From: Verrucomicrobiota bacterium
Lineage (GTDB): Bacteria > Verrucomicrobiota > Verrucomicrobiia > Limisphaerales > JACQFS01
Assembly: GCA_016199935.1 (NCBI GenBank)
Contig: JACQFS010000015.1
Span: forward strand, 39,455 to 103,454
Length of the DNA stretch: 64,000 nucleotides
Reading direction: 5' to 3'
Part shown: positions 2,270 to 62,413 of the stretch, piece by piece
Layout: the number at the start of each line of letters is the position of its first letter
How positions within the stretch are numbered: the stretch's first letter is position 1
Translations under genes and position numbers: made by a program
The notes under the pieces: generated by a model
Databases searched by the model: none
What the model was told of the DNA's origin: nothing
Seen by the model: the letters and a program-made list of their open reading frames with translations, nothing else

Positions 2270-4072
2270 ATGCCCTCCAAAGACGACATCCGGCTGGAAG
2301 AAGAACTCGCTCAGAAAAAAATGAGCGCGGGCACCTTCTTTCGCCTCACGGCCTGGCTGCGGCCGTATCGGCGGCGTGTGGTGTGGAATCTGATTTTCAC
2401 CGCGCTCGCCACCGCTTCGTCGCTGCTCGGGCCGAAGTTCATCCAGATCGGCATTGACCGTTTCCTCACCAACTTTTCCACGGCAGAAGTGGCGATGCAC
2501 GGCATTCTCATCGTGAGCGTGGTGTTCCTCCTCAACCTCCTGCTCGGTTGGGGACTCTCCGTCGCGCAGGTGACGAGCGCCATCACCGTCGGGCAGGGCG
2601 CGATGAACGACCTGCGCATGGCGGTCTTCGAGCACATCCAGAAACTTTCGCTCAACTATTTCGACAAGACGCACCAGGGCCGCATCATCGCGCGCGCGGA
2701 TACGGACATTGAATCGCTCGACCGCATCCTGACATGGGGCGCGACGCAGATGCTCGGCAGCGCGCTCACGCTCGTCGGCGTCGTCGCGCTCATGCTGCAA
2801 TATGACTGGCGCCTTTGCCTCGCCGTGAGCGCGGTGCTGCCGCCGCTCGCGATTGCGTCGCGAATTTTTCACACCAAAGGCATGGCCGCCTACCGCAAGG
2901 TGCGCGCGCAGTCGTCGCGGCTCACGGCGGCGATGGCGGAAAACATCGCGGGCGTGCGAGTGGTGCAGGCGTTCACGCGTGAGGAGGAAAACCTCGGGCG
3001 CTTCGAGGAACTGCACGAGACCTATAACAGCCACGTGCTCGCGGCGTCGCGGGTGTTCCACACTTACCTGCCGTTCATCGGGCTGATGTCGGGCGTGGGC
3101 GCGGCGGTGATCCTCGGCTACGGCGGCGCGCTGGTGATGCGCGATGAAATCACCGTCGGCCAGCTCGCGGCGTTCGTGCTCTACTTGGGAATGTTCTTCG
3201 GGCCAATCCAGACGATGGGCGACCTCTACAACTCGCTGCTGTCAACCGCCGCGAGCGCCGAGCGGATTTTCCAACTGCTCGACACCGAGCCGCAGGTCCG
3301 CAACCGCCCTGCGTCACAGCCGCTCCCGCCGATCCGCGGGCACATTGTTTTTGACCACGTGTGGTTCCGCTACGACTCGACGCCCGCCGATGCATGGGTG
3401 CTGGAGGACATCGCGTTTGAGGCGAAGCCGGGCGAGACTGTCGCGCTCGTGGGTGCCACCGGAAGCGGCAAGACGAGCGTCATCAGCCTGCTCACGCGCT
3501 TCTACGAGCCGCAGCGCGGGCGCATCACGATGGACGGCCTCGATTTGCAAACCGTGACCATCGAGTCGCTCCACGAGCAGATCGGCATCGTGACGCAGGA
3601 CAACTTCCTCTTCACCGGCACGGTGATGGAGAATCTAAAATTCGGCCGCCCTGCCGCGACCGACGACGACGTGATGGCCGCCGCGAAAAAGCTCGGCACG
3701 CACGAGGTCATCCTTCGCTTCGCCGATGGCTACGCGACAAAGGTGGGCGAGCGCGGCGCGAACTTCAGCGCGGGCGAGCGGCAGTTGCTCTGTTTCACGC
3801 GCGCGATGGTCGCGCAACCGCGCCTGCTCATCCTCGACGAGGCGACGAGCGCGGTGGACCCGCAGACGGAGGGCTTGATCCAGCACGCGCTGGAGGAGCT
3901 TTTTGCGAAACGCACGAGCTTCGTCATCGCGCACCGCTTGAGCACCGTGCGGCACGCGCACCGCATCCTCGTGCTCGACCACGGGCGCATCATCGAGCAG
4001 GGCACGCACGCGGAGCTGCTTGCGCTCGGCGGGAGATACGCGCGGCTGCACGAGGAGTTTGTGCGGCAGTGA
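2270..4072 (+). CDS. ABC transporter, fused permease/ATP-binding protein (subunit 2)
   Basis: ATG at 2270 in frame with the 652-aa ORF; Walker A GATGSGKTS, Walker B LILDEATSAVD, H-loop IAHRLSTV, degenerate signature FSAGERQ. Confidence 0.92.
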   Translation: MPSKDDIRLEEELAQKKMSAGTFFRLTAWLRPYRRRVVWNLIFTALATASSLLGPKFIQIGIDRFLTNFSTAEVAMHGILIVSVVFLLNLLLGWGLSVAQVTSAITVGQGAMNDLRMAVFEHIQKLSLNYFDKTHQGRIIARADTDIESLDRILTWGATQMLGSALTLVGVVALMLQYDWRLCLAVSAVLPPLAIASRIFHTKGMAAYRKVRAQSSRLTAAMAENIAGVRVVQAFTREEENLGRFEELHETYNSHVLAASRVFHTYLPFIGLMSGVGAAVILGYGGALVMRDEITVGQLAAFVLYLGMFFGPIQTMGDLYNSLLSTAASAERIFQLLDTEPQVRNRPASQPLPPIRGHIVFDHVWFRYDSTPADAWVLEDIAFEAKPGETVALVGATGSGKTSVISLLTRFYEPQRGRITMDGLDLQTVTIESLHEQIGIVTQDNFLFTGTVMENLKFGRPAATDDDVMAAAKKLGTHEVILRFADGYATKVGERGANFSAGERQLLCFTRAMVAQPRLLILDEATSAVDPQTEGLIQHALEELFAKRTSFVIAHRLSTVRHAHRILVLDHGRIIEQGTHAELLALGGRYARLHEEFVRQ

Positions 4073-4083
4073 AGACACGGATT

Positions 4084-4773
4084 TCACGGATGGGCACGGA
4101 ACGGGACATGGCCAATCCGGACCGTCAGCCGACGAGGCTCGGGATGGCCGGCAACTGTTCGACCCGCATCTGAAACGGAATTCAGCCGTTGAGCCCGCGA
4201 AGCACGCCAAAGACGCGAATGGGAATCGGGCCGGGTGTCGTGATTCGAATCAATCCCGCGGGGGGGGCGGCGTGGTGACTTTGCCTTCGCGTGGGTTCGC
4301 GTGTTTCGCGGGCGCCACTCCGGACTTCGGATTTGCCCCTCAGTCCTGCGTGTGCGGATGCGTTTCCCCGGCGTGCGATTCGTGCGCGGGATCATGCGCG
4401 GGATCATGATTCGGATCCCGGCGGTGAGTTTCACCTTCGCGGTCTCCAAAGATTTTTTCGCGGGCGCGTGGCCGCGACGCGACGCGACGATCAGCCATTT
4501 TGCTCCCTCGATGGCGTCCTTGGGCACGCCGCGGCCGAGGCAATACATGAGGCCGAGACTCGTCATCGCTTTCGCGTGGCCCTGATCGGCGGCGCGCTGA
4601 AACCAGTAGGCGGCTTCCCAATCGTTTTTGTCCACGCCCTGCCCGTCGAGATAGGCGGTGCCGAGGAGGTATTGCTCGCGCACGTCGCCGCCGAGCGCCT
4701 TCTCGCGCGTGTCGCGCAGGGAGAAGGCGTTCAGCTCGTTGACGATTTTGAACACGGCGCCGAAAAGACTCAT
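4084..4773 (-). CDS. Sel1-repeat (SLR/TPR-like) protein with atypical C-terminal extension
   Basis: Sel1-like repeats (GDVREQYLLGTAYLDGQGVDKNDWEAAYWFQRAADQGHAKAMTSLGLMYCLGRGVPKDAIEGAKW); internal Met at 4773 is the likely start. Confidence 0.65.
   Translation of the reverse strand: MSLFGAVFKIVNELNAFSLRDTREKALGGDVREQYLLGTAYLDGQGVDKNDWEAAYWFQRAADQGHAKAMTSLGLMYCLGRGVPKDAIEGAKWLIVASRRGHAPAKKSLETAKVKLTAGIRIMIPRMIPRTNRTPGKRIRTRRTEGQIRSPEWRPRNTRTHAKAKSPRRPPRGIDSNHDTRPDSHSRLWRASRAQRLNSVSDAGRTVAGHPEPRRLTVRIGHVPFRAHP
4194..4312. repeat. Inverted repeat (cccgcgaagcacgccaaagacgcgaa ... ttcgcgtgggttcgcgtgtttcgcggg)
   Basis: Arms 4194-4219 and 4286-4312 are imperfect reverse complements. Confidence 0.65.
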
Positions 4774-10747: not shown

Positions 10748-13700
10748 ATGTGGCGTAAACTGTTCTATGCCGTTGTCGCAATCCTGCTGGTGGCCAACCT
10801 CGTTGTTCGTTGGTGGGCCGATGACGGGCAGGCGGGGTTGGCACGCCGGCTTCCCGACGTTTCGCCGGGATGGAAACTCAAGGTCGTCGCCCAGTCTCCC
10901 CGGATCCGCAACCCGACGGCCGTCTGCTGCGCGCCTGATGGCCGGGTGTTTGTCGGGGAAGACGTGATGGATGGCGAGGGCGTCACCGATCGGCCCGTGA
11001 GCCGCGTCGCGTGCATCCATCCCGGCGGCCGGGTGGAGGTTTTTGCGGACCAGCTTTTCTGTGTGCAGGGACTGGCTTACCTCGACGGCCAACTTTATGT
11101 GAATCACGCGCCCAAGTTCAGCGTGTTCACCGACGACGGCGCCCGCGCCACGCAACGCCGTGACCTCTTCGACTGCACCAGCCCGCGGGCGGACGGCACG
11201 GTGCTGCTCGGCTCGCGCACGCATGTGCCGGGAAATTTCCGGCTCGGCATGGATGGATTTTTTTATCTGGCCGTCGGCGACGCGGGCCTGTTCAACGTGC
11301 GGAGCCGGGACGGCCAGACCATTCAACTTCACGGCGGCGGCGTCTTTCGCTTCCGGCTCGACGGCTCGGACATGGAGGTGTTCGCCAGCGGCACGCGCAA
11401 CCATCCCGACGTGGCGCTCAACGCCGAGGACGAACTGTTCACTTACGACAACACCGACGACGGCAACGGCTGGGGCACGCGCCTCACGCACATGGTCGAG
11501 GGCGGCACCTACGGTTACCCGTGGGACTTCAAGCCGCGCCGGCCCCACACGCTCTGGATGATCAGTGACTTCGGCGGGGGGGCGGGCGCGGGAGCGTTCT
11601 GTTACAACGAGGACGCGCTGCCGACTGAGTTTGGAGGCGATCTGTTTCTGGCCGACTTTAGTCGGCAGCAGATTATGCGTGTGACCCTTGGGCGGGCCGG
11701 TGCGAGTTTCGTCCTCGCGACACGGCACAACGACGGCGGAAGCGATTTCGTTGCGTCGCGCGGACTTTTCCTGCCGGTCGGCTTGGCCGTCTCGCCAGAT
11801 GGCGCGGCGGTTTACATCACCGATTGGAATACCGGCGAAGTGAAAACGGACAAGGGCCGGCTGATCAAACTAACCTATCAGGGACCGAGCGCCGCTGCGG
11901 CCAGACCTCCGTGGTGGCTGCCCGCCGCACTCGGCAAACCGATCGAAGCTTCCGTCTCGGAACTCCTCACCGGCCTCCGGCACCCCGCGCAATCCGTCCG
12001 GCTTGTGGCGCAACGACAACTTGCCACGCAAGCCACGGCCGCGTTGCCGGCCGTGCGCGCATTGCTGGCTGATACGAACGCGCCGCCCTTCGCGCGCTGG
12101 AGCGCGATCTGGACGCTCGACGCAATCCACGGCGGCCTCGACTCCCGCACGAATGTAATCGCCGCGTTGCGCGATGCCGATGCCAGCGTGCGGCGGCAGG
12201 CCGCGCGGCAACTCTGGGTGCGGCGCGCGAGCGAAGCCGTCGGGCCGCTCGTCGAGTTGCTGCACGACCCGGACGCTTCCGTGCGGTTTCACGCCGCGAC
12301 GGCGTTGGGCCGCATCGCCGACCCAACGGCCATCGCGCCGCTTCAGGGCGCGCTGGTGGAGAAGGATTTGTTCGCCCGTTACGCAGCGTTTACCGCTCTG
12401 AACCGCGTGGGCCGCGTGCATCCCGACCGCTGGCCGGAAATTGCACTCGGTCTCGACGCGCCGGAATCGGAAATTCGGGAGGGAACCATTTTTGCGTTGC
12501 GCGAAGTTTTTGAAACGGCCGTTGTCGCGGCGCTGGCGCAATGCGTCGTCTCGACGAACGCGTCCGCCACGGTGCGCGTCCTGGCGCTGGATGCGATCAC
12601 CTTGGCCGCGCGAAAATCCGTGGCTTGGGACGGCGGCTGGTGGGGCGCCAATGGTCATCCTTCGGTGCAACCGCGGCCGGCACGGACGCTCGACTGGGAA
12701 GGCACACCGGTTTGCCTCGCGCGCATACGCGCTGCGTTGCGTGACCCGGACAGTTCGGTGCGGCAGACCGCGGCACGCAGCACCGCGTGGCTGCGCGACG
12801 CGGAGGCGGAAGCCGAACTGGCCGCCGCGCTCGCCACGGAATCGGAGCCCGGAACCGTGGTCGCGCAGCTCGAAGCTCTGGCCGAACTTGGCGGCGACCT
12901 CGCGCGCCGGGCCGTCGCGGATGAACTCGTTCGTCTCCGACATTCCGGCTCCATCGGTGCCACCAACGACCCGCCGGTTTTTTATGCCGCACTCGAGGCC
13001 GCGGGCCGGTTGGGCGGGCCGGAGATCGAATCCGCGCTCGCCCGGTTTCTGGACCAGCCGCCGAACCCGTCCGGCCTCGTCGAAATCATCCGACACCTCG
13101 GTGAACTGAAAATTTCCGGAGCCGTCTCCGGGCTGGCAAAACGCCTGGACGATCCGGACGCGGAGATTGGCCAGGTCGTCGCGGTCGCACTGGGGAGCAT
13201 TGGCGGCGATGCGGCGGCGCAAGCGTTGGAACGGCGGCTGGCCGGCGCGGCCGGCAATTTGCGCCGCGAGATCATCCGCAGCCTCGGCCTGCTGCGCGCC
13301 ACCAACGCGATCCCGGCGTTGCTACAGACGGCGAAGGACGAAGACGTTCGGGCAGTGGCCACCGAAGCGCTCGCGCGGATGCCGGACCTGCGGGCGCTGC
13401 GCCTGTTCCTCGACAGTGTCGCCCACGGCGACCCGCGCACCCGGATGGTTTCGCGCACGGCGCTCGGCGCGCTTTGCCGACGGGACTCGGCGGCGGTGTC
13501 GCGTGCGGCAGACGTTGCAAAATTATCGCGCGCCGAGCGCCGAGTGCTGAATGAAATCCGCGCCGCGTCTTCGCCGGCTGAATCGCACGCCGTGAAGGCC
13601 CTCGCCGGCTTCGCCCTCGCCAATCCGGGCGACGCCGAACTGGGGGCGCGTTTGTTTCACGACGACCCGGCGCTGGCCTGCGCGAAGTGTCATCGCGCCG

Positions 13701-15462: not shown

Positions 15463-18390
15463 ATGAAATCATCGCTCCTCACTCTGGCTTTCGCCGCCGC
15501 GGTCGCCCTTCCGTTGGCCCGGGCGGCCCAGCCGGTGCCGGCGAATTCTGAAATCGAGTCGTTGTTCATCCGGCGCGTCACACCGCTGTTCAACGAGAAG
15601 TGCCTTGCGTGCCACGGCAAGGACGAGCAGAAGATCAAGGGTGGCTTCGATATGCACACGCCGGCCGGCTTGCTCAAGGGCGGCGAGAGCGAGAAACCTT
15701 CCATTGTTCCGGGCAGGCCCGATGCGAGTCCGTTGTATCTCGCCGTCACGCGCCTGCACGAGGACGACAACTGGATGCCGATGCCGCCGAAGGAGGCGGA
15801 CAAACTCACGCCGGAGCAGATCGGCTGGATCAGGCAATGGATCGCCGGCGGCGCGCCGTGGCCCGACGAGGCGCGCGTGAAGGAACTCTCCAGGGCCAAC
15901 GCGGACAAGTGGTCCGCCGAGGACGGCGTCACGGTGAAGACCGCCGGCGGCCTCTCGCCGGAGTGGACGAACCGCAAATACAAGCCGGAGGGTTTGTGGG
16001 CGTATCAGGCGGTGAGGAAGCCGGCGGTGCCGGCGGCGGAAACTCGAAACTCGAAACTCGAAACTCGAAACCCCATTGACGCCTTCCTCGCCGCGAAGAT
16101 GCCCGCCGGTCTCCAGCCCGCGCCGCTCGCCGACCGCACGACGCTCATCCGCCGCGCGACGTTTGACCTGACCGGCCTGCCGCCGAAGCCAGAGGAGATT
16201 GAAAGTTTTCTGAACGACCCGCTGCCGGACGAAAGGGCCTTCAACAAAGTCATCACGCGCCTGCTCGCCTCGCCGCACTACGGCGAGCGCATGGCGCAGC
16301 ACTGGCTTGATGTGGTGCGTTACGCTGATTCTAGCGGCTTCGCGAATGACTACGAGCGCGGCAACGCGTGGCGCTATCGCGACTACGTCGTGCGCGCGTT
16401 CAACTCGGACAAGCCTTACGACCAGTTCATCCGCGAGCAGATTGCGGGTGACGAAATCGCCGAGTCGCGCTCCGAAGACGGCGAATTGCTCATCGCCGCC
16501 GGCTTCCTCCGCATGGGCCCGTGGGAGTTGACCGGCATGGAGGTCGCGAAGGTTGCGCGCCAGCGTTTCCTCGACGACGTGGCGAACAGCGTGGGCGAAA
16601 CCTTCCTCGCGCACGCGCTGCAATGCGCCCGTTGCCACGACCACAAGTTCGATCCGATTCCGACGCGCGATTACTATTCGCTGCAGGCGGTCTTCGCGAC
16701 GACGCAACTCAGCGAGCGTGCCGCGCCGTTCTTGAAGGAGGAGAACACCGGCGGGTTCGAGGAACGGAAATTTCTCGAAGCGCGCCGCGCCGAATACATG
16801 ACCACGCTCGCGGCGCTCGATGCGAAACTGGTCAGGAACGCGGAGCAGTGGTTCAAGGACAAGGGCCTCGACGCCACGAAGTGGAATGCCGCCATCGCGC
16901 AGGCGCGCACGCAGCCGCCCGTGAATCGCAACGGCAAGCGGCGCGAGTTCGGCGGCATTTTCGACGGCGCGCGCGCGGCGATGGTGAAGCAAGGCGTGCC
17001 CGAGGATCAGTATCCGCCCAAGCTCGTCGGCTTCTCCCCGCAGGACTACGGCAACGAGCGCGTCGCGCGCAAGGGAGTCGAGCGCCTCAAGTGGGAGCTT
17101 GATCGTTACGAGCCGTTCGCGCTCTCGGTCCACAGCGGCCGCACGCCCGAGGTGAAGGCGGTGCTCGCGCCCGTGCGCATGCCGGCCAATCGCATGAGTG
17201 ACGGCGAACTCGAGGAGACGTGCGTGCTCACCGGCGGCGATCCGTTTGCCTCGGGGCAGAAGGTGAAGCCCGGTGTGCTCAGCGTGCTCGGCTCGGTGCA
17301 GCAGACGCCCATCCCCGACGCCATCGAAGGCCGGCGCAAGGCGTTCGCTGATTGGGTCGCAAGCCCGGAGAATCCGCTCACCGCGCGCGCCATTGTGAAC
17401 CGCATCTGGCTCTGGCATTTCGACCAGCCCATCGCGGGCAACCCGAATAATTTCGGCAGCACGGGCAAGAAGCCCACGCATCCCGAACTGCTCGACTGGC
17501 TCGCGGCGACGTTCGTCGAGGGGAGCGCGGGCGGCGTGCCCGCGAGTCCGTGGTCCGTCAAGGCGATGCACCGGCTCATCATGAGTTCCGAGGCGTATCG
17601 GCGTTCGGCCAGTTTCCCCGACCGAAAACTTCTCGCCGAGAAAGATCCAACCGGCACGAGCTACGCCGTCTTCAAACCGCGCCGGCTCTCGGCGGAAGAA
17701 CTCCGCGACTCGATGCTCGCCGCCACGGGCGAGTTGAACCCGACACTCGGCGGCATTCCGAATCGTCCCGAGATCAATCTCGAAGCCGCGCTCCAGCCGC
17801 GCCAGGTCATGGGCACGTTCGCCAACGCGTGGACGCCGAATCCGAAGCCGGAGCAGCGTCATCGCCGCTCGCTCTACGCGCTGCGGATTCGCGGACTGCC
17901 CGATCCGTTTCTCGAGGTGTTCAACAATCCCGCGCCGGACTTCTCGTGTGAGAACCGCTCCGCCTCGACCGTCACGCCCCAGGTCTTCAGCCTCTTCAAC
18001 GGCCGCGCCAGCTACGACCGCGCGCTCGCCCTCGCCAACCGTGCCGTGAAGGAAACGAAGTCCGATGAAGCGGCGCTCACGCGTTGCTTTCAACTCACCT
18101 ACGGACGCGCGCCAAACGCGAACGAACTCAAGTCCTGCTTCGCGCACTGGCGCGTGATGGAAGCGGAACAGAAGTCCACGAAGCTCGAATCGCCGAAGCC
18201 GCCGCTCGAAGTGAAGCGCGAGGCCGTGGAGGAAAACACCGGCGAGAAATTCACCTTCAACGAGAAGCTCGAGGCCTACGCCGAGTTCGTCCCCGACCTT
18301 CAACCGGCCGCCGTGGACGCCCACACCCGCGCGCTGGCCGATGTCTGCCTCGTGCTCTTCAACTCCAACGAGTTTGCGTATGTTTACTAG
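15463..18390 (+). CDS. DUF1549/DUF1553 protein with N-terminal planctomycete-type cytochrome c domain
   Basis: CLACHGKDEQK heme motif, second CARCHDHKFDPI motif, DUF1553-like C-terminus; ATG at 15463 with signal peptide. Confidence 0.92.
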   Translation: MKSSLLTLAFAAAVALPLARAAQPVPANSEIESLFIRRVTPLFNEKCLACHGKDEQKIKGGFDMHTPAGLLKGGESEKPSIVPGRPDASPLYLAVTRLHEDDNWMPMPPKEADKLTPEQIGWIRQWIAGGAPWPDEARVKELSRANADKWSAEDGVTVKTAGGLSPEWTNRKYKPEGLWAYQAVRKPAVPAAETRNSKLETRNPIDAFLAAKMPAGLQPAPLADRTTLIRRATFDLTGLPPKPEEIESFLNDPLPDERAFNKVITRLLASPHYGERMAQHWLDVVRYADSSGFANDYERGNAWRYRDYVVRAFNSDKPYDQFIREQIAGDEIAESRSEDGELLIAAGFLRMGPWELTGMEVAKVARQRFLDDVANSVGETFLAHALQCARCHDHKFDPIPTRDYYSLQAVFATTQLSERAAPFLKEENTGGFEERKFLEARRAEYMTTLAALDAKLVRNAEQWFKDKGLDATKWNAAIAQARTQPPVNRNGKRREFGGIFDGARAAMVKQGVPEDQYPPKLVGFSPQDYGNERVARKGVERLKWELDRYEPFALSVHSGRTPEVKAVLAPVRMPANRMSDGELEETCVLTGGDPFASGQKVKPGVLSVLGSVQQTPIPDAIEGRRKAFADWVASPENPLTARAIVNRIWLWHFDQPIAGNPNNFGSTGKKPTHPELLDWLAATFVEGSAGGVPASPWSVKAMHRLIMSSEAYRRSASFPDRKLLAEKDPTGTSYAVFKPRRLSAEELRDSMLAATGELNPTLGGIPNRPEINLEAALQPRQVMGTFANAWTPNPKPEQRHRRSLYALRIRGLPDPFLEVFNNPAPDFSCENRSASTVTPQVFSLFNGRASYDRALALANRAVKETKSDEAALTRCFQLTYGRAPNANELKSCFAHWRVMEAEQKSTKLESPKPPLEVKREAVEENTGEKFTFNEKLEAYAEFVPDLQPAAVDAHTRALADVCLVLFNSNEFAYVY
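16041..16070. repeat. Tandem heptamer repeat (AACTCGA)x4 inside CDS
   Basis: Four perfect units aactcga plus aa, read in frame as ETRNSKLETRN. Confidence 0.95.
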
Positions 18391-22379: not shown

Positions 22380-24134
<1,755 letters not shown>

Positions 24135-24190: not shown

Positions 24191-24305
24191 TGTAGGGCAG
24201 GCTTCCAGCCTGCCGGTTAGCCGGGCATCTTGCCCGGCGGTTTTGAAACGCGCGGACACGAGGCAGGATGCCTCGTGAACCGGCAGGCTGGAAGCCTGCC
24301 CTACA
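24191..24305. repeat. Composite palindromic element with perfect 28-bp terminal inverted repeats and two internal hairpins
   Basis: 24191-24218 tgtagggcaggcttccagcctgccggtt is the exact reverse complement of 24278-24305; internal hairpins gccgggcatcttgcccggc and cacgaggcaggatgcctcgtg. Confidence 0.93.
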
Positions 24306-31982: not shown

Positions 31983-33671
31983 TCAGTTTTGCTCCTGCTT
32001 CGCCTTGCCTTTGCCCTTTTTCTTCGCCTTGCCCTCACCGGCGGCGGGCGCGGTCTTGGCGACGAGCGTTTTCGTTTCCTCGGTGTGCTTGTTCCAGACC
32101 TGTTCGAGCTCGCGCACCTTGTCGGGCATTTGCGCGGCGAGGTTGTGCGACTCGGCGCGATCGGTTTTCAAATCGTAGAGCTCCCACGGATCGCCCTTCG
32201 CGGCGACGAGTTTCCAGTCGCCCACGCGCACAGCCTTGTTGTCCTCGTGCAGCCACCAGAGGTAATCGTGCGCCACGGTGCCGTCCTTTTTGAAAGCGGG
32301 CACGAGACTCTTGCCGGGCGCGGGCGGAACCGGCTCGCCGCCGAACACGGCGGGCTTCTTCGTGCCGGTCACTTCGAGCAGCGTCGGCACCACGTCAATG
32401 AGGTGCGCCGGGTTGTGGCGCAGCTCGCCGCGCGCCGCGATGCCCGCGGGCCAGTGGACGATGAACGACGTGCTGATGCCGCCCTCGTGGACCCACGTCT
32501 TGTGCCGGCGGAATGGCGTGTTGGCCGCGCTCGAAAATCCGGGGCCGAGGCAGAGGAAAGTTTTCGCCGAGCCCATCGGCGCCTGCTGGTCGTGGCCGTC
32601 GCCGCGCACCATGATCTCCGCACTCGCGCCGTTGTCGGAAAGGAACATGATGATCGTGTTGTCGAGCGCGCCCATCGCCTTCACCTGCGCGAGCACCTGG
32701 CCGATCTCCTGGTCCATGCGGTCCACCATCGCGGCGTGGATGGACATTTTCGTCGCCTGAAAATCCCGCTGCTCGGTGGTGAGCGTGGCCCACGGCACGG
32801 GGCGGTTGATCTCGCCGGGGCCGAGCTTCGCGATGTCCTCGGGGAAGGCGTAAGGCGGGCCGATGTTCACTTCGAGCGCGGAGAGAGTGGTGCTCACGAG
32901 GCCCATCTTTTTCTGCCGGCCGAAGCGCTCCTCGCGCATCACGTCCCAGCCCTTTTCGTATTTCCCCTTGTAGCGCGCGATGTCCGCGGCGGGTGCCTGC
33001 AACGGAAAATGCGGCGAGGTGAACGCGAGGTATTGGAAGAACGGCTGGCCGCTGAATTTCTCCGCGTGCTCCTTGAGGCACTTCACCGCGTGCGCCCCGG
33101 CGGCGGACGTGACGTAGTAATCGGGCGTCTGCACGTTCGGCACGCCGTCCTCGGTGTTGCCGGGAGCCTTGAAAAAATTGTTCTGCCCGCCGCCGATCTC
33201 GAACGAGTGATCGAAGCCGTTGTCCAGCGGCTTGCCGTCTATGTGCCACTTGCCCGAGTGGTAGCAGCGGTAGCCTTCGGCCTTGAGCATCGTGGAAAGG
33301 AGCGGCGCCCATTTCTGCCGCACGCCCTTGCCGCCGCCGCCGAGGCTCCCCAGCGAGTCGCGGTGAATCTGCTGCGCGTAGTAGCCCGTCATCAACGCGC
33401 CGCGCGACGGCCAGCAGCGCGCGGTGTTGTAGAATTGCGTGAAGCGCAGTCCGTTCTTCGCGAGCCCGTCGAGGTTCGGCGTCTGGATGTCGCCGCCGTA
33501 GCAACCGGGGTCGGAGTAGCCGAGGTCGTCGGCGACGATGAGGAGGATGTTCGGGCGCGCGGCGGCGGCGGCCGCAGAAGTATTCAGTATCCAGTGTTCA
33601 GTGTTCAGAAGCGCGAGCGCGACGAGCAGGATGAACCACGGACGGGCGGTGAACCGATTGGTCGAGTGCAT
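31983..33671 (-). CDS. Sulfatase (CWPSR)
   Basis: PNILLIVADDLGYSDPGCYGGDIQTPNLD, ARCWPSRGALMTGYY. Confidence 0.94.
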   Translation of the reverse strand: MHSTNRFTARPWFILLVALALLNTEHWILNTSAAAAAARPNILLIVADDLGYSDPGCYGGDIQTPNLDGLAKNGLRFTQFYNTARCWPSRGALMTGYYAQQIHRDSLGSLGGGGKGVRQKWAPLLSTMLKAEGYRCYHSGKWHIDGKPLDNGFDHSFEIGGGQNNFFKAPGNTEDGVPNVQTPDYYVTSAAGAHAVKCLKEHAEKFSGQPFFQYLAFTSPHFPLQAPAADIARYKGKYEKGWDVMREERFGRQKKMGLVSTTLSALEVNIGPPYAFPEDIAKLGPGEINRPVPWATLTTEQRDFQATKMSIHAAMVDRMDQEIGQVLAQVKAMGALDNTIIMFLSDNGASAEIMVRGDGHDQQAPMGSAKTFLCLGPGFSSAANTPFRRHKTWVHEGGISTSFIVHWPAGIAARGELRHNPAHLIDVVPTLLEVTGTKKPAVFGGEPVPPAPGKSLVPAFKKDGTVAHDYLWWLHEDNKAVRVGDWKLVAAKGDPWELYDLKTDRAESHNLAAQMPDKVRELEQVWNKHTEETKTLVAKTAPAAGEGKAKKKGKGKAKQEQN

Positions 33672-33722
33672 GAGATAGAGTGTTGGTCACTGACTGAATA
33701 CTGAACACTGAAAACTGATCAC
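33579..33722. repeat. Inverted pair of 'ACTGAATACTGAACACTGA' word repeats flanking and entering the sulfatase start
   Basis: 33579-33608 agtattcagtatccagtgttcagtgttcag is opposed to 33690-33722 ctgactgaatactgaacactgaaaactgatcac. Confidence 0.85.
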
Positions 33723-35539
33723 TTCGGCTTCAACGTGAGCGTCACCAGCCGCACATCCATCACGTTCTTGCCGGGAATCTCCAGCGCGCGGAGCGTGAGC
33801 AGGCCCCGCCCTCTTTCCAGTTTCATCGCGCCGAGATTCAGCGCGTGGAACTCCTTCATGATGGACTCGCCCTTGCGCGGCACGCGGTCCTGATTGTCAA
33901 TCAGCGGCGGATCCCAGCCGGGCGCGACTTTGCCCGCGGACTTCGCGCCGTTGAAACTCAACTCCACCGTCGCGCCCGCGTCGGCGAGCGGGCAGGTGTA
34001 GTAAATCGTCGCGTCGTATTCGCCCGTCGTGTTCACCGCGATGTCCCACGTCATCGAATCGTCGAGCGATTTCCAATTCACGAAATAGGAGCAATTCGGC
34101 GCGCCCGAGCTGCGCGTCACGGTGCCGTGCGCCACGCCGTCGCGCGCGGGCAGCGGCGTCATCGGAAATTCCGCGTAGCCGACGGGATACGGCCGGTCGT
34201 CGTCGAGCTTCGCCTCAGCTTTCGCCTTCGCCTTGCCCTTGGCTTTGCCCTTTCCCTCCGCGACCGGCGGCGCGCTGACCGTGCCCAGGACTTCCTTCCG
34301 CCAATCCGCCACCGCCAGCCGCAGGCGCGCGGCGACGTCCGGCTCCTTCGCCGCGATGTCCGTCCGCTGCGTCGGATCGGCGACCATGTCGAACAGCGCG
34401 TTGGTCCGGTCGAGGCGGTAGCGCTGCGTGCGCACGCTCACCGGGCCGCTGTTGTAGGAAAAAATCATGCGGTCAGGCCAGTCCACACGCGCGCCGAGCA
34501 GCAGCGGCGAAAGGTCCTTTCCATCGAGCGGCTTCGTGCCGACGCGCGGGATGCCGGCGAGGCTCGTGAGCGTCGGCAGCAGATCAATCGCGCCGGCGAT
34601 TTCGCGGACGCTCGTGCCGGGTTTGATTTTGCCCGGCCAGCGGATGAGAAACGGCACGCGCACGCCGCCTTCCTCCGTCATGCCTTTGCGGCCTTTCATG
34701 CCGCCGTTCCAACGCCACGAGTTCGGGCCGTTGTCGGAGAAATAAATCACGATGGTGTTGTCGGCGAGCTTGAGCTGATCGAGCCGCTTGAGCACGCGGC
34801 CGACATTCCAGTCGAGATTCTCGACCATCGCGAGCGCGCAACGCGTCACGGGCAGATCCTCATTCGCGCCGTCCTGGCTGCGCATCGGGATGGGCGCGTC
34901 CTTGAAGCGGTTCCAGTATTCGTCCGGCACGCAGAACGGCGAGTGCGGCGTGTTGAACGGCAGGTAGCAGAGGAACGGGCGCGATTTATTTTTCTCGATG
35001 AACTCCATCGCGTGGTCCGTGAGATCGTCGGCGATGTAGCCCTTGCCGCGGACGAACTGCCCGTTGTGCTCCAGCGGTGGGTCGAAATATTCGCCCCAAT
35101 GGCCGGAGGTGAAGCCGTAGTATTCGTCGAAGCCGCGCGCGTTCGGGTGATACGGCCACTGGGAGCCGTTGTGCCATTTGCCGAAGGCGCCGGTCGCGTA
35201 GCCCGCGGCCTTGAACGCGTCCGCGACGGTCCGCTCGTCGAGGTTGAGCCGCTCCTGCCCGGTCGAGACGCCGCGCACGCCGCCGCGCGAGTGGTAGCGG
35301 CCGGTGAGAAATTCCGCGCGCGTCGGCGAGCACAGCGGGCAGACGTAGAAGCGGTCGAACGCCGCGCCGGCGCGCCCGAGCGCGTCAATGTTCGGCGTCT
35401 TGATGTTCGTGTTGCCGTTGAACGAGTAGTCGCCCCAGCCCGAGTCATCGGCGAGCAGGATGAGGATGTTGGGCGGGCGCGCGGCGGCAAACGCATCGCC
35501 GACCAAACCCAGGAGCAGCAGCAGTAATAATTTTTTCAT
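33719..35539 (-). CDS. Sulfatase (CSPTR) with Lys/Ala-rich linker and C-terminal accessory domain
   Basis: PNILILLADDSGWGDYSFNGN, PLCSPTRAEFLTGRYHSRGG; GKGKAKGKAKAKAEAK linker; ATG at 35539. Confidence 0.93.
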   Translation of the reverse strand: MKKLLLLLLLGLVGDAFAAARPPNILILLADDSGWGDYSFNGNTNIKTPNIDALGRAGAAFDRFYVCPLCSPTRAEFLTGRYHSRGGVRGVSTGQERLNLDERTVADAFKAAGYATGAFGKWHNGSQWPYHPNARGFDEYYGFTSGHWGEYFDPPLEHNGQFVRGKGYIADDLTDHAMEFIEKNKSRPFLCYLPFNTPHSPFCVPDEYWNRFKDAPIPMRSQDGANEDLPVTRCALAMVENLDWNVGRVLKRLDQLKLADNTIVIYFSDNGPNSWRWNGGMKGRKGMTEEGGVRVPFLIRWPGKIKPGTSVREIAGAIDLLPTLTSLAGIPRVGTKPLDGKDLSPLLLGARVDWPDRMIFSYNSGPVSVRTQRYRLDRTNALFDMVADPTQRTDIAAKEPDVAARLRLAVADWRKEVLGTVSAPPVAEGKGKAKGKAKAKAEAKLDDDRPYPVGYAEFPMTPLPARDGVAHGTVTRSSGAPNCSYFVNWKSLDDSMTWDIAVNTTGEYDATIYYTCPLADAGATVELSFNGAKSAGKVAPGWDPPLIDNQDRVPRKGESIMKEFHALNLGAMKLERGRGLLTLRALEIPGKNVMDVRLVTLTLKPK

Positions 35540-56589: not shown

Positions 56590-59575
56590 TCACTCCTTGG
56601 TCACCACTTCATCGAGGTTCAGCAGCACGTTGGCCGTGAGCGTGTAGGCGGCGAGTTCGGCCGGGTCGAGTTTCGCGTCGGGTTTCGATTCACCGAGTGC
56701 GACGAGTTTCTTCGCGGCCTCGGCTTCGGCGCGATATTTCACGAGGCGTTTCTCCAGACCCGCGGTGAGCACTTTCAAATCAGCAGCATCCGGCTGGCGG
56801 CTCGTGACGCGGCGGAAACCCCACGCGATGCGCTCGGCGGGCGTGGCACCGCCATCGGTCATCATGTGCTGCGCGAGCGCGCGGGCGGCCTCGACGTAGG
56901 TGATCTCGTTCAGCAACGCGAGCGCCTGGAGCGGCGTGTTGGTGCGCGGGCGTTTCACCGTGCAGATCTCGCGCGAGGGCGAATCGAACAGCAGCATCGT
57001 GGGCGGCGCGGCAGTGCGCTTCCAGATGGTGTAGAACGTGCGGCGGTAGAGCGCGTCGCCCGTGTCGTGCTTGTAGCCGCGCAGGTCGCCGTATTTGCTC
57101 GTCTCGTCCCACACGCCCTCGGGCATGTAGGGGCGCACGCTCGGCCCGCCGATCTTCTCGACGAGCAATCCGCTCGCGGCGAGCGCCTGGTCGCGGATGA
57201 CCTCGGCGGGCAGGCGGAAACGCGGGCCGCGCGCAAGCAGGCGATTCTCCGGATCGCGCTCGACCAGCGCCGGTGTGACCTTCGACGACTGCCGATATGT
57301 CGCGCTCATCACGATCAACTTCTGCATCGCCTTCATGTCCCACTTGAGCCGGACAAACTCGGTCGCGAGCCAGTCGAGCAACTCCGGATGGCTCGCCGGC
57401 TCGGACTGCATGCCGAAGTTCTCGCTCGTCTTCACGAGGCCAGTGCCGAAAAATTTCTCCCACTGGCGGTTCACCCACACGCGCGCGGTGAGCGGATGCT
57501 GCGGGTCCACGAGCCACTTCGCGAGGCCGAGGCGGTTGGTCGGCGAGCCCACGGGCATGGGCGGCAGCACGGCGGGCAGCGCGGCGAAAACGGCGTCGCC
57601 CGGCTTGTCGTATTGGCCGCGGATGAGCAACCGCGCCTCGCGCGGCTTGGCGAGTTCCTTCATCACCATCACGGTCGGCAGCTTGCTTTCGAAATCCTCG
57701 ACGGACTTCTTCGCGGCGGCGAGGGCGTCGTCGGCCTGCTTGACGGGGCTGGCGATGTTGGCACGAAAAAATTTCTCCAGCTCGGCGCGCTGCTTCGCGT
57801 TCCGCTTCTCGGGCGCGGTCGCGAGAATCTGCTTCAACGACTCGGGCACGCCGCCCTTTGGCCTTCGCCTTCGCTTTGCCTTTCGCCGCTGGCTCGGGTG
57901 CGGCGGGCACGAGCGACTCGATGCCGTAACCCTTCTGCGAGTAGTCCGCCTCGGCCTTGGTGAAGGAAACTTTCACCGGTTGCACGAGTCCAGGCGCAGA
58001 GATTTCCGCCTCGACTTTGCTGAGAACAAAGTTGCCGTTGCCATTTCGTCCGAGACTTTTCTCCGGCAGGCTCGTGTCAGGGAACGCTTCGAGCAGCACG
58101 CCGGTGAACTGCCCCGCCGCGAGCGGCACGGTGATGACGTAGGTGTCCTTCGGCGGATTCTTTCCGCTCGCGAGATACGAGCCGTCCGCCTGGCGCGCGA
58201 GCGTGGCGCCGCCGAGCGACAGCACTTCGGTCGGCGCGAGTTGCGTCCACGTGCTCGCTTCGGAATCGGCTTTCGCGCGGAAGCCCGGCTCCCACGCGGC
58301 GACGAGCTTCGGCAATTCCTTCTGCGCCTCGGCGACCTTCGCCTGCGCGGCGGTCACTTTGTTTTCAAGAACCGCGAGTTGCGCCTCCTGCTCCGGCGAG
58401 GGCACGAGCACGGACGGCTCGGGATTGCCGCCACCGCGGTTGGCCTTGATGCCGCCGAGCGTGCCGCTCTCGTCCACGTTGTTGAAGAAGGCGAAGAGCT
58501 GGTAAAATTCCCTCTGCGTGACGGGGTCGTATTTGTGGTCGTGGCAGCGGCAGCAGTTGAGCGTGAGCGCCATCCACGTCGCGCCGGTCGTCTCCACGCG
58601 GTCAATGATGTTCTCGATGCGCCATTCGTCGGCGATGATGCCGCCCTCGCCGTTGATGCGATGGTTGCGATGGAAGCCGGTCGCGACGATCTGCGCGCGC
58701 GTCGGGTTCGGCAGGAGATCGCCGGCAAGTTGCTCGATGGTGAACTGGTCGAAGGGCTTGTTGTCGTTGAACGCGGCGATGACCCAGTCGCGCCACGGCC
58801 ACATGCTGCGGCTGCTGTCGGTCTGGAAGCCGTGGCTGTCGGCGTAGCGCGCGTAATCGAGCCAGTTCATCGCCATGCGCTCGCCGTAGCGCGGCGAGGC
58901 GAGCAGACGATCCACGACATTCTCGTAAGCCTTCGGCGATTTGTCCGCGGCGAACGCATCCACTTCCTCCGGCGTGGGCGGAATGCCGGCGAGGTCGAGC
59001 GAGACGCGGCGGATGAGCGTGACGCGATCGGCCTCGGGCGAGCGCGAAAGTTTTTCCGAGGCGAGGCGGGCGAGGATGAAATTATCAACCGGATTCTGAA
59101 CCAGAAACTTTGAACCTTGAACCTTGAACTTTGAACTTTGAACCACGGGCACGGCCGGTCGCCTTGGCGCGCTGAACGCCCAATGCCCCTGATACTCCGC
59201 GCCCTCGGCGACCCAGCGGCGGAACGTCTCCTTCTGCGCCAGCGTGAGGTCTTTGTGCGCGGACTTCGGCGGCATCAGGTCGTCCTCGTCCTTCGCGAAG
59301 ATGCGGCGGATGATTTCCGATTTGTCAGGCTTGCCGGGGACGACTGCGACATCGCCGGACTTGCCCGCCTTGAGCGCCTCTTCGCGGCTGTCTAGGCGGA
59401 GCTTGCCCTTGCGCGCCTTCTCGTCGTTGCCGTGGCAGTGAAAGCACGTGTCCGACATGATGGGCCGGATGTCGCGGTTGAAATCCACCTTGCCCGTCGT
59501 CGCCGCGTGAGCAGGGCCGCCCGCCGTCACGAGGGTCAGGGCTGAAACGATGCTGAACAGTGTGCGCATGGTCAT
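56590..59575 (-). pseudogene. DUF1549/DUF1553 protein with cytochrome c domain, split by an apparent +1 frameshift near 57854
   Basis: N-terminal frame (59575 to ~57857) ends in PAAKGKAKAKAK; C-terminal frame continues from GGVPESLKQILATAPEKRNAKQ to 56590. Removing one G from GGG (57854-57856) restores AKGGVPESL. Confidence 0.85.
59105..59142. repeat. Tandem heptamer-like repeat (aactttg/aaccttg) inside CDS
   Basis: gaaactttgaaccttgaaccttgaactttgaactttgaacc; read on the minus strand as VQSSKFKVQGSKF. Confidence 0.92.
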
Positions 59576-59687: not shown

Positions 59688-60674
59688 TCAGTGCGCCGCG
59701 AACTCCCGGTGCAACGCGCGCAGCGAATCGCGCACCACGTTCAGGTCGCCGACGATGACGAACTGACGGAAAGCGTAGTCTCCGGGCGTCACGCCATGCA
59801 CCGCGTCGCGGCGGCGGAAGACGCAGTTCCATTTCACCACGCGTGCGTCGGGAAAACGGAAGCGACCGTAGCGCGGGCCGGTCTCGGGCGAGAAGATGCC
59901 CATCGCGTGGCTGCCGCTTTCGGTCGCGAGGATAACCGGGAAGTTTTGTTCGCCGTTTCCGCCTTCGAGCGGCTCCAACTCGCCACTCGCCGGATTGAAT
60001 TTCCAAAACTTCGAGAACTCCGCCGGCATGTAGCCCGTCACCGCTTCGAACACCGCCTCGTTGTGCCGTTCGCCCACGGGCAGACCGAAGGTCACGTCGT
60101 AACGGATGACGTGGTGCATCCCGCGCCAGCCGATCTCGACGCGCTTGGTGATGAGATGATCGGAGAGGATCGCTGTGTTCTTCGCCGGATGGCCCTCGGA
60201 CATCTCACTGGGCACGAGCCAGAAGGCCATCTGCGTGGTGGTCTGGAGCACGTTGCTTTTCGCGACGAGGTGCAGCAGGCGACTGGAGGATTTCGGCCCC
60301 GCGCCATCGAGTCGCGAGCCGGCCTCCGTGGGGTTAAACGTCTCGGCGATGATCGGCGTGCCGAGGTCGCAGTTGATCGCCGACTGCAACTGCCGCCCGT
60401 GGTCGGTCGAGTCAATGAACTCCTTGCCATTCCACGTCACCGAATGAATCGCGCCCGCGAGCCGCGCCGTGGTGGTGATGACGATGTCGGAGACGCCGGC
60501 GCGCGTGCGGATGGAGGCGTCGCCTTCGGCGGCGAATGACCAAGGACCAAGGACCAAGGACCAAAGAAGGACCAAGCTCCAAATTCCAAATCGAATTTCC
60601 GACCACGGTCGGCATCTTGGCGATTTGAAATTGGAGCTTCCTTGGTCCTTGGTCATTTGTCCTTGGTCATTCAT
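59688..60674 (-). CDS. Secreted protein of unknown function with repeat-encoded signal peptide
   Basis: ATG at 60674, SD-like aagaagga upstream; MNDQGQMTKDQGSSNFKSPRCRPWSEIRFGIWSLVLLWSLVLGPWSFAAEGD then a coherent folded-looking body. Confidence 0.8.
   Translation of the reverse strand: MNDQGQMTKDQGSSNFKSPRCRPWSEIRFGIWSLVLLWSLVLGPWSFAAEGDASIRTRAGVSDIVITTTARLAGAIHSVTWNGKEFIDSTDHGRQLQSAINCDLGTPIIAETFNPTEAGSRLDGAGPKSSSRLLHLVAKSNVLQTTTQMAFWLVPSEMSEGHPAKNTAILSDHLITKRVEIGWRGMHHVIRYDVTFGLPVGERHNEAVFEAVTGYMPAEFSKFWKFNPASGELEPLEGGNGEQNFPVILATESGSHAMGIFSPETGPRYGRFRFPDARVVKWNCVFRRRDAVHGVTPGDYAFRQFVIVGDLNVVRDSLRALHREFAAH
60535..60671. repeat. Long imperfect inverted repeat of CCAAGGA/CCTTGGT heptamers, within a CDS start
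   Basis: Left arm 60535-60593 aatgaccaaggaccaaggaccaaggacc...gctccaaattccaaatcg; right arm 60621-60671 cgatttgaaattggagcttccttggtccttggtcatttgtccttggtcatt; central ccgaccacggtcgg hairpin. Confidence 0.92.
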
Positions 60675-60688
60675 TTCCTTCTTCTGTC

Positions 60689-62413
60689 TCACGGCCGCGG
60701 CAGCACATGCGTGCGCTTCGCCCACACGTCCCACTTCGCGGACATTTCTTTCACACGCTCGGGCTGCGACGCGGCGAGGTTGTTCAGCTCCACGCGGTCG
60801 GCGTCCATGTCGTAAAGCTCCCACGGCGCGGCGGCGAAAGAGACGAGTTTCCATTTGCCCTCGCGAATCGCGCGGTTGCCTTCGTGTTCCCAGGCGAGGA
60901 ACTCGCGTTCGACCGGTTGGTTCGCGAACGCCGGCAGGAGACTCTTGCCTTCGCGCGGAAGGATTTTGTTTCCGTTCAACTCCCCCGGATACTTCGCGCC
61001 CGCGAGCTCCACGCACGTCGCCATGAGATCAATGAGGTGGCCCTGCTGCGCGCGGAACTCGCCCTTTGCCTTCACGCCCGCCGGCCAGTGCGCGATGAGC
61101 GGCGTGCTGATTCCGCCCTCGTGGTCGTAGTGCTTGTAGAGTCGCCACGGCGTGTTGCACGCGTTGGCCCAGCCGGAGCCGTAGCTCGGGAACGAGCCGG
61201 GGCCGCCCATCTTCGCGAGCTCGTCGCCGCGGTAGAGTTTGTTCGGCAACGCCTGTGTGCCCTGATTGAGGCCGGTGCCGGGCACGGGATTCGGCGTCGC
61301 CAACATCTCGAAGCCGAACGGTTCCCACTCGGCGCACGCGCCGTTGTCGCTGAGGAAAAAGATGAGCGTGTTGTCGAGTTGGCCGCCTGCGCGCAGGTCG
61401 GCGAGGAGCCGGCCGATGTTGCGGTCCATGCCCGTGACCATGCCTGCATAAACGGCCATGCGCTGCGCGAGGTCGGCACGGCGCTCGGCGGGCAAGGAAT
61501 CCCACGCGGGATTTTTCCCATCGGCAGTCATCGAACCCTCGCGCGTGGAGGCGACGACGTGCGGGATTTTGCTGCGCGGCGTGAGCGTGGTGCCGTCGGG
61601 CAGCAGGCCGATTTTCTTCTGCCGCGCGAGACGTTGCTCGCGGATTTTGTCCCAACCCTGCGCGTAGATTTCCGGATAGCCGGCCATGTCATCCTTGCGC
61701 GAGGCGATGGGGAAATGCGCCGCCTGATACGCAACATAGAGCAGCCACGGCGCGCCGGACTTCCCCATGTCGGCGAGAAAATCCAGCGCGTGATCGGTGA
61801 GCGCGTCGGTAGCGAAAAATTCGCCCGGCTTGTAGCTGCGCTGCGGTCTGCCCTCGGGCAGGCGCGTCATCATGCGCGGCTCCCACGAGTCCACGCCGTA
61901 GCCGCTGACGAAGCCGTAGAAGTCATCGAAGCCGCGTTTGGCCGGCAGCTCGCGGTCGCCCACGTGCCATTTGCCGACGGCGGCGGTGCGGTAGCCGGCG
62001 GGCTTGAGCACCTGCGCGATGGTCACGCAGCTCTCGTTGAGCGCTCCGCGGTAGCCGGGAAATTTTTCCCCCTGATCGCCCGCGCCGGGATATTTCGCGG
62101 CCTTGTCCGAGGTCATCAGCCCAATGCCGGCCTGGTGCGGATAAAGCCCCGTGAGCAGCGATGCGCGCGAGGGACAGCAGCGCGTGCAATTGTAGAACTG
62201 CGTGAAGCGCAGCCCGCCCGCCGCGAGCGCGTCGAGATTCGGCGTTCGGATCTCGCCTCCGTAACAGCCGAGGTCCGACCAGCCGAGGTCGTCGGCGAGG
62301 ATGATGAGGATGTTGGGTTTCGCGGGCGCGGCGGCGGCGGGAGTAACGAGTAAGCAGTAATCCGTAAACAGCGCCGCCAGCGCGGCGGGAAAAAGTCGGG
62401 CGATGGATTTCAT
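60689..62413 (-). CDS. Sulfatase (CCPSR)
   Basis: PNILIILADDLGWSDLGCYGGEIRTPNLD, CTRCCPSRASLLTGLYPHQAG; ATG at 62413 with signal peptide. Confidence 0.94.
   Translation of the reverse strand: MKSIARLFPAALAALFTDYCLLVTPAAAAPAKPNILIILADDLGWSDLGCYGGEIRTPNLDALAAGGLRFTQFYNCTRCCPSRASLLTGLYPHQAGIGLMTSDKAAKYPGAGDQGEKFPGYRGALNESCVTIAQVLKPAGYRTAAVGKWHVGDRELPAKRGFDDFYGFVSGYGVDSWEPRMMTRLPEGRPQRSYKPGEFFATDALTDHALDFLADMGKSGAPWLLYVAYQAAHFPIASRKDDMAGYPEIYAQGWDKIREQRLARQKKIGLLPDGTTLTPRSKIPHVVASTREGSMTADGKNPAWDSLPAERRADLAQRMAVYAGMVTGMDRNIGRLLADLRAGGQLDNTLIFFLSDNGACAEWEPFGFEMLATPNPVPGTGLNQGTQALPNKLYRGDELAKMGGPGSFPSYGSGWANACNTPWRLYKHYDHEGGISTPLIAHWPAGVKAKGEFRAQQGHLIDLMATCVELAGAKYPGELNGNKILPREGKSLLPAFANQPVEREFLAWEHEGNRAIREGKWKLVSFAAAPWELYDMDADRVELNNLAASQPERVKEMSAKWDVWAKRTHVLPRP

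Follow-up and report, generated by a model that had tools for sequence, protein, structure and literature searches.

The gene at 59688–60674 on the minus strand of the window, by which we mean the whole stretch of 64,000 nucleotides analysed here, joins a repeat-encoded signal peptide to a conserved mature protein. We consider it very probable that a dispersed and probably mobile hairpin built of 7-base units became the Sec signal peptide of an exported protein by way of the 5' end of its gene. The origins of new signal peptides are rarely visible; because this repeat appears to have become a signal peptide many times, and because the ancestral alternatives can still be read, origin, replacement and maintenance become traceable and testable. 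The genetic code also offers a simple reason, in 3 x 7 = 21 and in the opposite hydropathy of complementary codons, why a repeat can give one targeting peptide whatever the frame or strand.

The 328-aa protein starts at 60674(-), immediately past the stop that ends a sulfatase gene (60689–62413); GAAGAAGGAA lies between this upstream stop (60689) and the ATG, and the minus-strand frame of 329 codons from 60674 begins MNDQGQMTKDQGSSNFKSPRCRPWSEIRFGIWSLVLLWSLVLGPWSFAAEGD. Residues 1–47 are encoded by a heptamer inverted-repeat element of 139 bp (60534–60672, minus strand), in agreement with the original prediction that the first 50 or so residues come from one repeat. Its arms (60534–60589 and 60617–60672) are 56 nt apiece, 80% complementary and 27 nt apart, an inner pair of 19 nt is 100% complementary, and the folded strand of the element has z = -10.5 against shuffles. 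On the coding strand, the A-rich arm (60617–60672) comes first and gives a polar, K/R-containing n-region, MNDQGQMTKDQGSSNFKS; the loop (60590–60616) holds a small inner palindrome, CCGACCACGGTCGG, at 60599–60612; and the T-rich arm (60534–60589) comes second and gives a hydrophobic h-region, FGIWSLVLLWSLVLGPWSF. Translation of both arms thus reproduces the predicted order of n-region and h-region, and the start codon (ATG, 60672–60674, minus strand) sits at the outermost repeat variant, AATGACC, where it had been placed. Two further claims stood in part. The arms are indeed heptameric, but the array described as one of CCAAGGA has mixed units, the plus-strand order being outer CCAAGGA units, an AAAGAAG interruption and inner CCAAGCT/CCAAATT units. 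The N-terminus, described as a complete signal-peptide-like one, receives its n-region and h-region from the element, which encodes MNDQGQMTKDQGSSNFKSPRCRPWSEIRFGIWSLVLLWSLVLGPWSF and is followed by AAEGD; since the last residue of the element is F47, the cleavage-site alanines (A48/A49) lie beyond it and are not part of it.

By a home-made scoring of hydropathy and cleavage sites, as distinct from a trained predictor, and with start codons inferred, the N-terminus has the features of a Sec (signal peptidase I) signal: K/R in residues 9–28, then an uncharged hydrophobic h-region whose best 9-residue window, LVLLWSLVL, has a mean Kyte-Doolittle value of 2.86, and small residues at -3/-1 (S/A in WSFA|AE, around residues 46–49). 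A point against this reading is that the n-regions predicted for repeat-encoded signals extend over some 30 residues, which is long, and that their h-regions contain much W, G and S. We infer from sequence and evolution that the proteins with repeat starts are exported, presumably by the ordinary Sec route. The suggestion of a new route to protein secretion was therefore overstated; what is new is the origin of the signal peptide.

Why a heptamer hairpin can read as a signal peptide follows in part from its period. Because three times seven is 21, the three frames of a stop-free array of a single heptamer share one peptide of seven residues: PWSLVLG for (CCTTGGT)n and TKDQGPR for (ACCAAGG)n, whichever frame is taken. 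These two heptads had been predicted, and their translation adds that they are independent of frame. Among 79 inverted elements, 71 have the A-rich arm first, and the reverse complement of such an inverted repeat has the same layout, so that orientation is irrelevant. Complementary codons have long been known to have opposite hydropathy; codons with a middle A are polar and their complements with a middle T are hydrophobic, so a hairpin with the A-rich arm first reads polar and then hydrophobic. Among CCAAG-family elements, 61% of all six frames are open from end to end, and 80% of these open frames run from polar to hydrophobic, compared with 4% for random genome segments and 6% for shuffled elements; the full signal-peptide shape is found in 16.7% of CCAAG-family frames versus 1.9%. 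That the arms read polar then hydrophobic in nearly every frame, whichever strand is taken, would be why the repeat has repeatedly replaced export signals in a group of Verrucomicrobiota.

The conserved core of the protein begins at G51 (GDASIRTRAG...; 59688–60524, minus strand), and is homologous to exported proteins from Verrucomicrobiota, Planctomycetota and Lentisphaerae. The 328-aa protein matched no family in Pfam or NCBIfam; a fold search suggests a carbohydrate-type supersandwich or galactose-mutarotase-like fold. Orthologs with the core occur in 18 other genomes of the order and in 79 named genomes, with 51–78% core identity in the alignment, and nearly all of the 79 have an ordinary, unrelated signal peptide ahead of it (for example, MNVRTRFLFTSLALLSGVVFSAAAPDG and MWPLHLSILLTLAAMPLQAGPAGD) with no similarity to the repeat-encoded peptide. 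Over the 250 nt that precede the core, all 79 lack a period-7 array, and no heptamer array was found in the closest relative (79% identical); the G175 ortholog, from another family, has an N-terminus that looks heptamer-like by eye and is of different sequence (MVKSTKHQPPRTREHPNTKLQ...WGLKCLWCLVLGVWCFNAAA). The comparison of orthologs, in which conserved mature proteins carry unrelated, non-repeat signal peptides, supports the earlier proposal that the repeat ships both n-region and h-region. The first possible start 3' of the repeat is a GTG at residue 81, within the conserved core, and the repeat is therefore not a leader. Because the core starts at residue 51, the orthologs have ordinary signals and the next start lies inside the core, the repeat appears to replace an ancestral signal peptide.

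Other elements in the window are placed similarly. In what looks like a second case of replacement, another heptamer element (23984–24134, minus strand) provides start codon, n-region and h-region (MNTQLKVQSSKLKGNSKLHV...GALSLVLLWSLVLGAWSFASG) for the sulfatase at 22380–24134, whose orthologs (60–83% identical, n = 11) have ordinary signal peptides and heptamer arrays in 0 of the 11. The downstream arm of an ACTGAAC-type element (33578–33724, minus strand) forms the signal-peptide end (LLNTEHWILNTSAAAA) of the sulfatase at 31983–33671, and a GTAANNN heptamer array (62341–62367, minus strand) lies in the signal peptide of the sulfatase at 60689–62413, the gene just upstream, at residues 16–25 (FTDYCLLVTP), as read from the sequence. 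In these two sulfatases, as in loci L082 and L145, a normal-looking start precedes an array that is confined to the h- or c-region, as would be expected if the signal peptide had come first and the array had grown within it by slippage or gene conversion, the repeat then being a consequence and not a source. We regard this as an unlikely account of the main type, which is a whole element of A-rich arm, loop and T-rich arm that is also found, with the same units, outside genes; moreover, no partial array was seen in orthologous signal peptides.

Several additional arrays and hairpins were observed in the window and at other loci. The ACTGAAC family, opposite to most elements, has the T-rich arm first (33578–33724 of the window; L131:9620–9746; L277:5786–5881). 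An in-frame CTTTGAA/CCTTGAA array at 59104–59145(-), within a PSCyt1/PSCyt2 protein (56780–59575), encodes SSKFKVQGSKFLVQ between the two domains, resembling an insertion of a Rickettsia palindromic element (RPE), and a CTCGAAA array of about five units (16036–16076) lies within the gene 15535–18390(+). Intergenic palindromes of GGCAGGCTTCCAGCCTGCC / CCGGGCATCTTGCCCGG type at 24200–24300 represent another dispersed-looking hairpin.

Recurrence across this genome was evident. In random contigs, autocorrelation detected 49 period-7 arrays per 513 kb versus 1–14 at each of the remaining periods between 4 and 13, far more than chance would give, and the unit families include CCAAGNN, TCAAAGN, GACGAAT, TCCGAAA, ACACTGA and CCTGCAA. 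About 1.1 Mb of the genome, partly selected by element similarity, served as the basis for extrapolating genome-wide counts, and the array-encoded N-termini were surveyed around element copies found by DNA similarity; in this sampled DNA, at least 20 exported proteins (about two dozen by inspection) have array-encoded signal peptides, and further cases come from other genomes described below. Those of this genome include at least eight sulfatases, two pectate-lyase-like proteins, DUF3999, a 3-keto-disaccharide hydrolase, PSCyt1 and a solute-binding protein, SBP_bac_5, with a lipobox (HTSALILLAACSG). The typical form runs from an ATG at the outer edge through a polar arm (MKAQSSKFKVQG..., MKLKAQSSKLKG...) and then a loop to a hydrophobic arm (...SLVLLWSLVLGAWSFA, ...LPLSFELCPLSFA). 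An automatic split assigned signal-peptide-like starts to 22/23, 5/5 and 7/9 embedded elements, from which six were later removed on inspection; L058:12163, L079, L083:11801, L123, L137 and L150 were judged not to be repeat-encoded, having a native signal or no repeat-encoded signal. The next ATG of the embedded class is typically 70–1000 nt past the element.

It is chiefly the CCAAG and TCAAAG families, which are poor in stops, that give signal peptides. Because only about 2 of 34 elements in random contigs form signal peptides, most copies do something else or nothing. Beside cytosolic genes, the array ends a few bases before the native ATG, as at genes that we take, from reading their sequences, to be MutL, NuoB and AckA and, in G186 (see below), LarC and ProB. 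One mutL-like gene (L056, 3050–5023) also has internal heptamer arrays at 4139–4185 and 3797–3827, plus one in its leader. Two paralogous neighbours, with arrays at L082:12097–12130 and 13235–13272, carry them in only the h/c portion of their signal peptides (SSLILHPSSLFAQ, LSTLNAQLSTVFAQ), which is a second, partial mode. A near-perfect inverted repeat of about 28 bp at L061:10742–10905 (GAATGGGGTCAGGCGAATGA...TCATTCGCCTGACCCCATTC) is apparently of a different repeat family.

Among genomes that are mostly draft metagenome assemblies, CCAAGNN triplets were found in 52 of 196 genomes of the order and in 39 of 394 across the phylum, and the pattern of repeat-encoded signal peptides occurs in other families of the order as well. 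G186, from another family, has about eight exported proteins with repeat-encoded starts, including a TolC-like outer-membrane efflux protein and a PSCyt1/PSD1 protein, and its LarC-, ProB-, DegT- and LutC-like genes have the array upstream of the ATG. In L284, an array-derived h-region is followed directly by a native-looking signal peptide, a plausible intermediate in signal-peptide replacement.

Within the genus g26, four ortholog pairs carry repeat-encoded signals: two differ by 40 and 50 substitutions over 150 nt yet show no indel, one includes a single gap of 18 nt, and in the fourth the heptamer element at the gene differs between the two species. One gene was read in eight species of this genus: seven, with varying units and left arms, keep a heptamer-derived hydrophobic core, which has decayed in the eighth. 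The nonsynonymous/synonymous ratio in the h/c region was 0.38 and 0.28 for two pairs, compared with about 1.0 in the n-region, from small counts of 5–7 synonymous changes per pair; the ratio of 0.79 for pair 3 is less clear, and the mature-region count of pair 3 and the n-region count of pair 2 (because of the gap) were discounted for alignment offsets. A control copy of the element, which precedes a G125 gene in its 5' leader, is missing from four congeners, which, as one empty-site comparison, is consistent with mobility.

These evolutionary data bear on whether the element could be chance-fixed or selfish DNA, the protein being translated from it yet no longer exported, or the gene decaying. 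The element is dispersed, in leaders and inside genes, as expected of selfish DNA, and function is not provable from single copies; nevertheless, the mature protein is intact and conserved, repeat-derived signals stand on intact sulfatases, a TolC-like protein, cytochromes and a solute-binding protein, and the signals are retained across species of the genus while their units turn over, so that we think this account improbable. Slightly more improbable still is a repeat serving only as a 5' leader or regulatory hairpin, with an open frame that is an annotation illusion and translation starting downstream: most heptamer elements in the genome do lie outside genes or end just before the native ATG of cytosolic genes, and REP surveys warn that, for such a reason, REPs at N-termini could be extragenic (PMC3733652), but the next possible start at residue 81 is inside the core and leaves no alternative signal peptide where the orthologs have one, the next ATG of the embedded class is similarly remote, and h-regions have fewer amino-acid changes than expected.

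For the conversion of a hairpin into a Sec signal peptide, which we prefer, the following course may be proposed. An exported protein's gene would capture an element at its 5' end, or an element would land there. An array of a single stop-free heptamer supplies the same 7-residue peptide in three frames, and with the A-rich arm first, as in the 71 elements, either orientation serves; the first arm provides a polar stretch with K/R from A-centred codons and the second a hydrophobic stretch from T-centred codons. An ATG at the outer edge and the gene's own small residues past the inner edge, both visible in the sequence, would complete a signal peptide that is presumably processed there. The ancestral signal peptide would become redundant and then be lost, as the orthologs and the apparent intermediate suggest. 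Purifying selection would thereafter preserve the hydrophobic part amid turnover of the units, the n-region and the loop, a view supported by the ortholog comparison. There is perhaps an even chance that the wider picture also holds, in which, within one Verrucomicrobiota lineage, mobile heptamer hairpins act as interchangeable, frame- and strand-independent Sec cassettes that keep replacing the signal peptides on tens of exported enzymes per genome, their units turning over and their hydrophobic output being conserved; providing export signals may even aid persistence of the element. For annotation, repeat-like N-termini of such proteins should not simply be trimmed.

A search for literature on heptamer repeats in Verrucomicrobia or Pedosphaera gave nothing directly on point, and we compared the element with known repeat systems. 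No Rfam match exceeded the gathering score, with only sub-threshold matches to microRNA hairpins, as from a chance hairpin; a hairpin listing with wide flanks was set aside, as it included non-element stems. The element is a candidate MITE: copies are dispersed, and the G125 leader copy is missing from the four congeners, while no target-site duplication or parent transposon was found. REP/REPIN sequences are also dispersed hairpins beside genes, occur in Verrucomicrobia (O. terrae) and are found in some cases at ORF N-termini, but they are GTAG/CGTC-tagged units of 20–40 bp associated with RAYT transposases, unlike the heptamer elements (PMC3733652). For 14 RAYT-type (Y1_Tnp) genes from array-bearing genomes, no flanking heptamer elements were found: four had no array in the stretch examined and the nearest arrays of the others were 186–2985 nt away. 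Arrays and Y1_Tnp co-occur weakly (50/52 genomes versus 115/144, with Fisher p = 0.004), an association that genome size confounds; with no adjacency either, Y1_Tnp/RAYT is not supported as the mobiliser, and the analysis found no mobilising enzyme. RPEs are likewise palindromic (about 150 bp) and lie in-frame in many unrelated protein genes, but they insert within proteins and are not heptamer-based, and the review mentions no export-signal role (PMC10969869).

The TAACTGA heptamers of Beggiatoaceae, Cyanobacteria and Bacteroidetes are tandem 7-base units, mostly intergenic near start codons (MacGregor 2015, PMC4679880); the repeating peptide of both readings was noted, and translational regulation, without signal peptides, was proposed (PMC4679880). 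They represent one fixed heptamer in direct repeats (one indirect) with a stop-rich forward reading (PMC4679880), whereas here there are many heptamers in inverted hairpins with the A-rich arm first; the units being CCAAGGA, CCAAGCT, CCAAATT and others, identity with TAACTGA was rejected. RU-2, an enterobacterial MITE-like repeat at Y. pestis YPO1552, is a precedent for a repeat that supplies a signal peptide, and there too the orthologs carry unrelated ones (Delihas 2007, PMC2759123). Compared by its published description, however, it is a single case of a fixed-sequence MITE, without heptamer arrays, frame and strand independence, genome-wide recurrence or turnover across species (PMC2759123). 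None of RU-2, TAACTGA, RPE and REP, as described, unites inverted heptamer arrays with independence of frame and strand and with repeated replacement of signal peptides; what is novel is where the signal peptide comes from and not, presumably, the secretion route.
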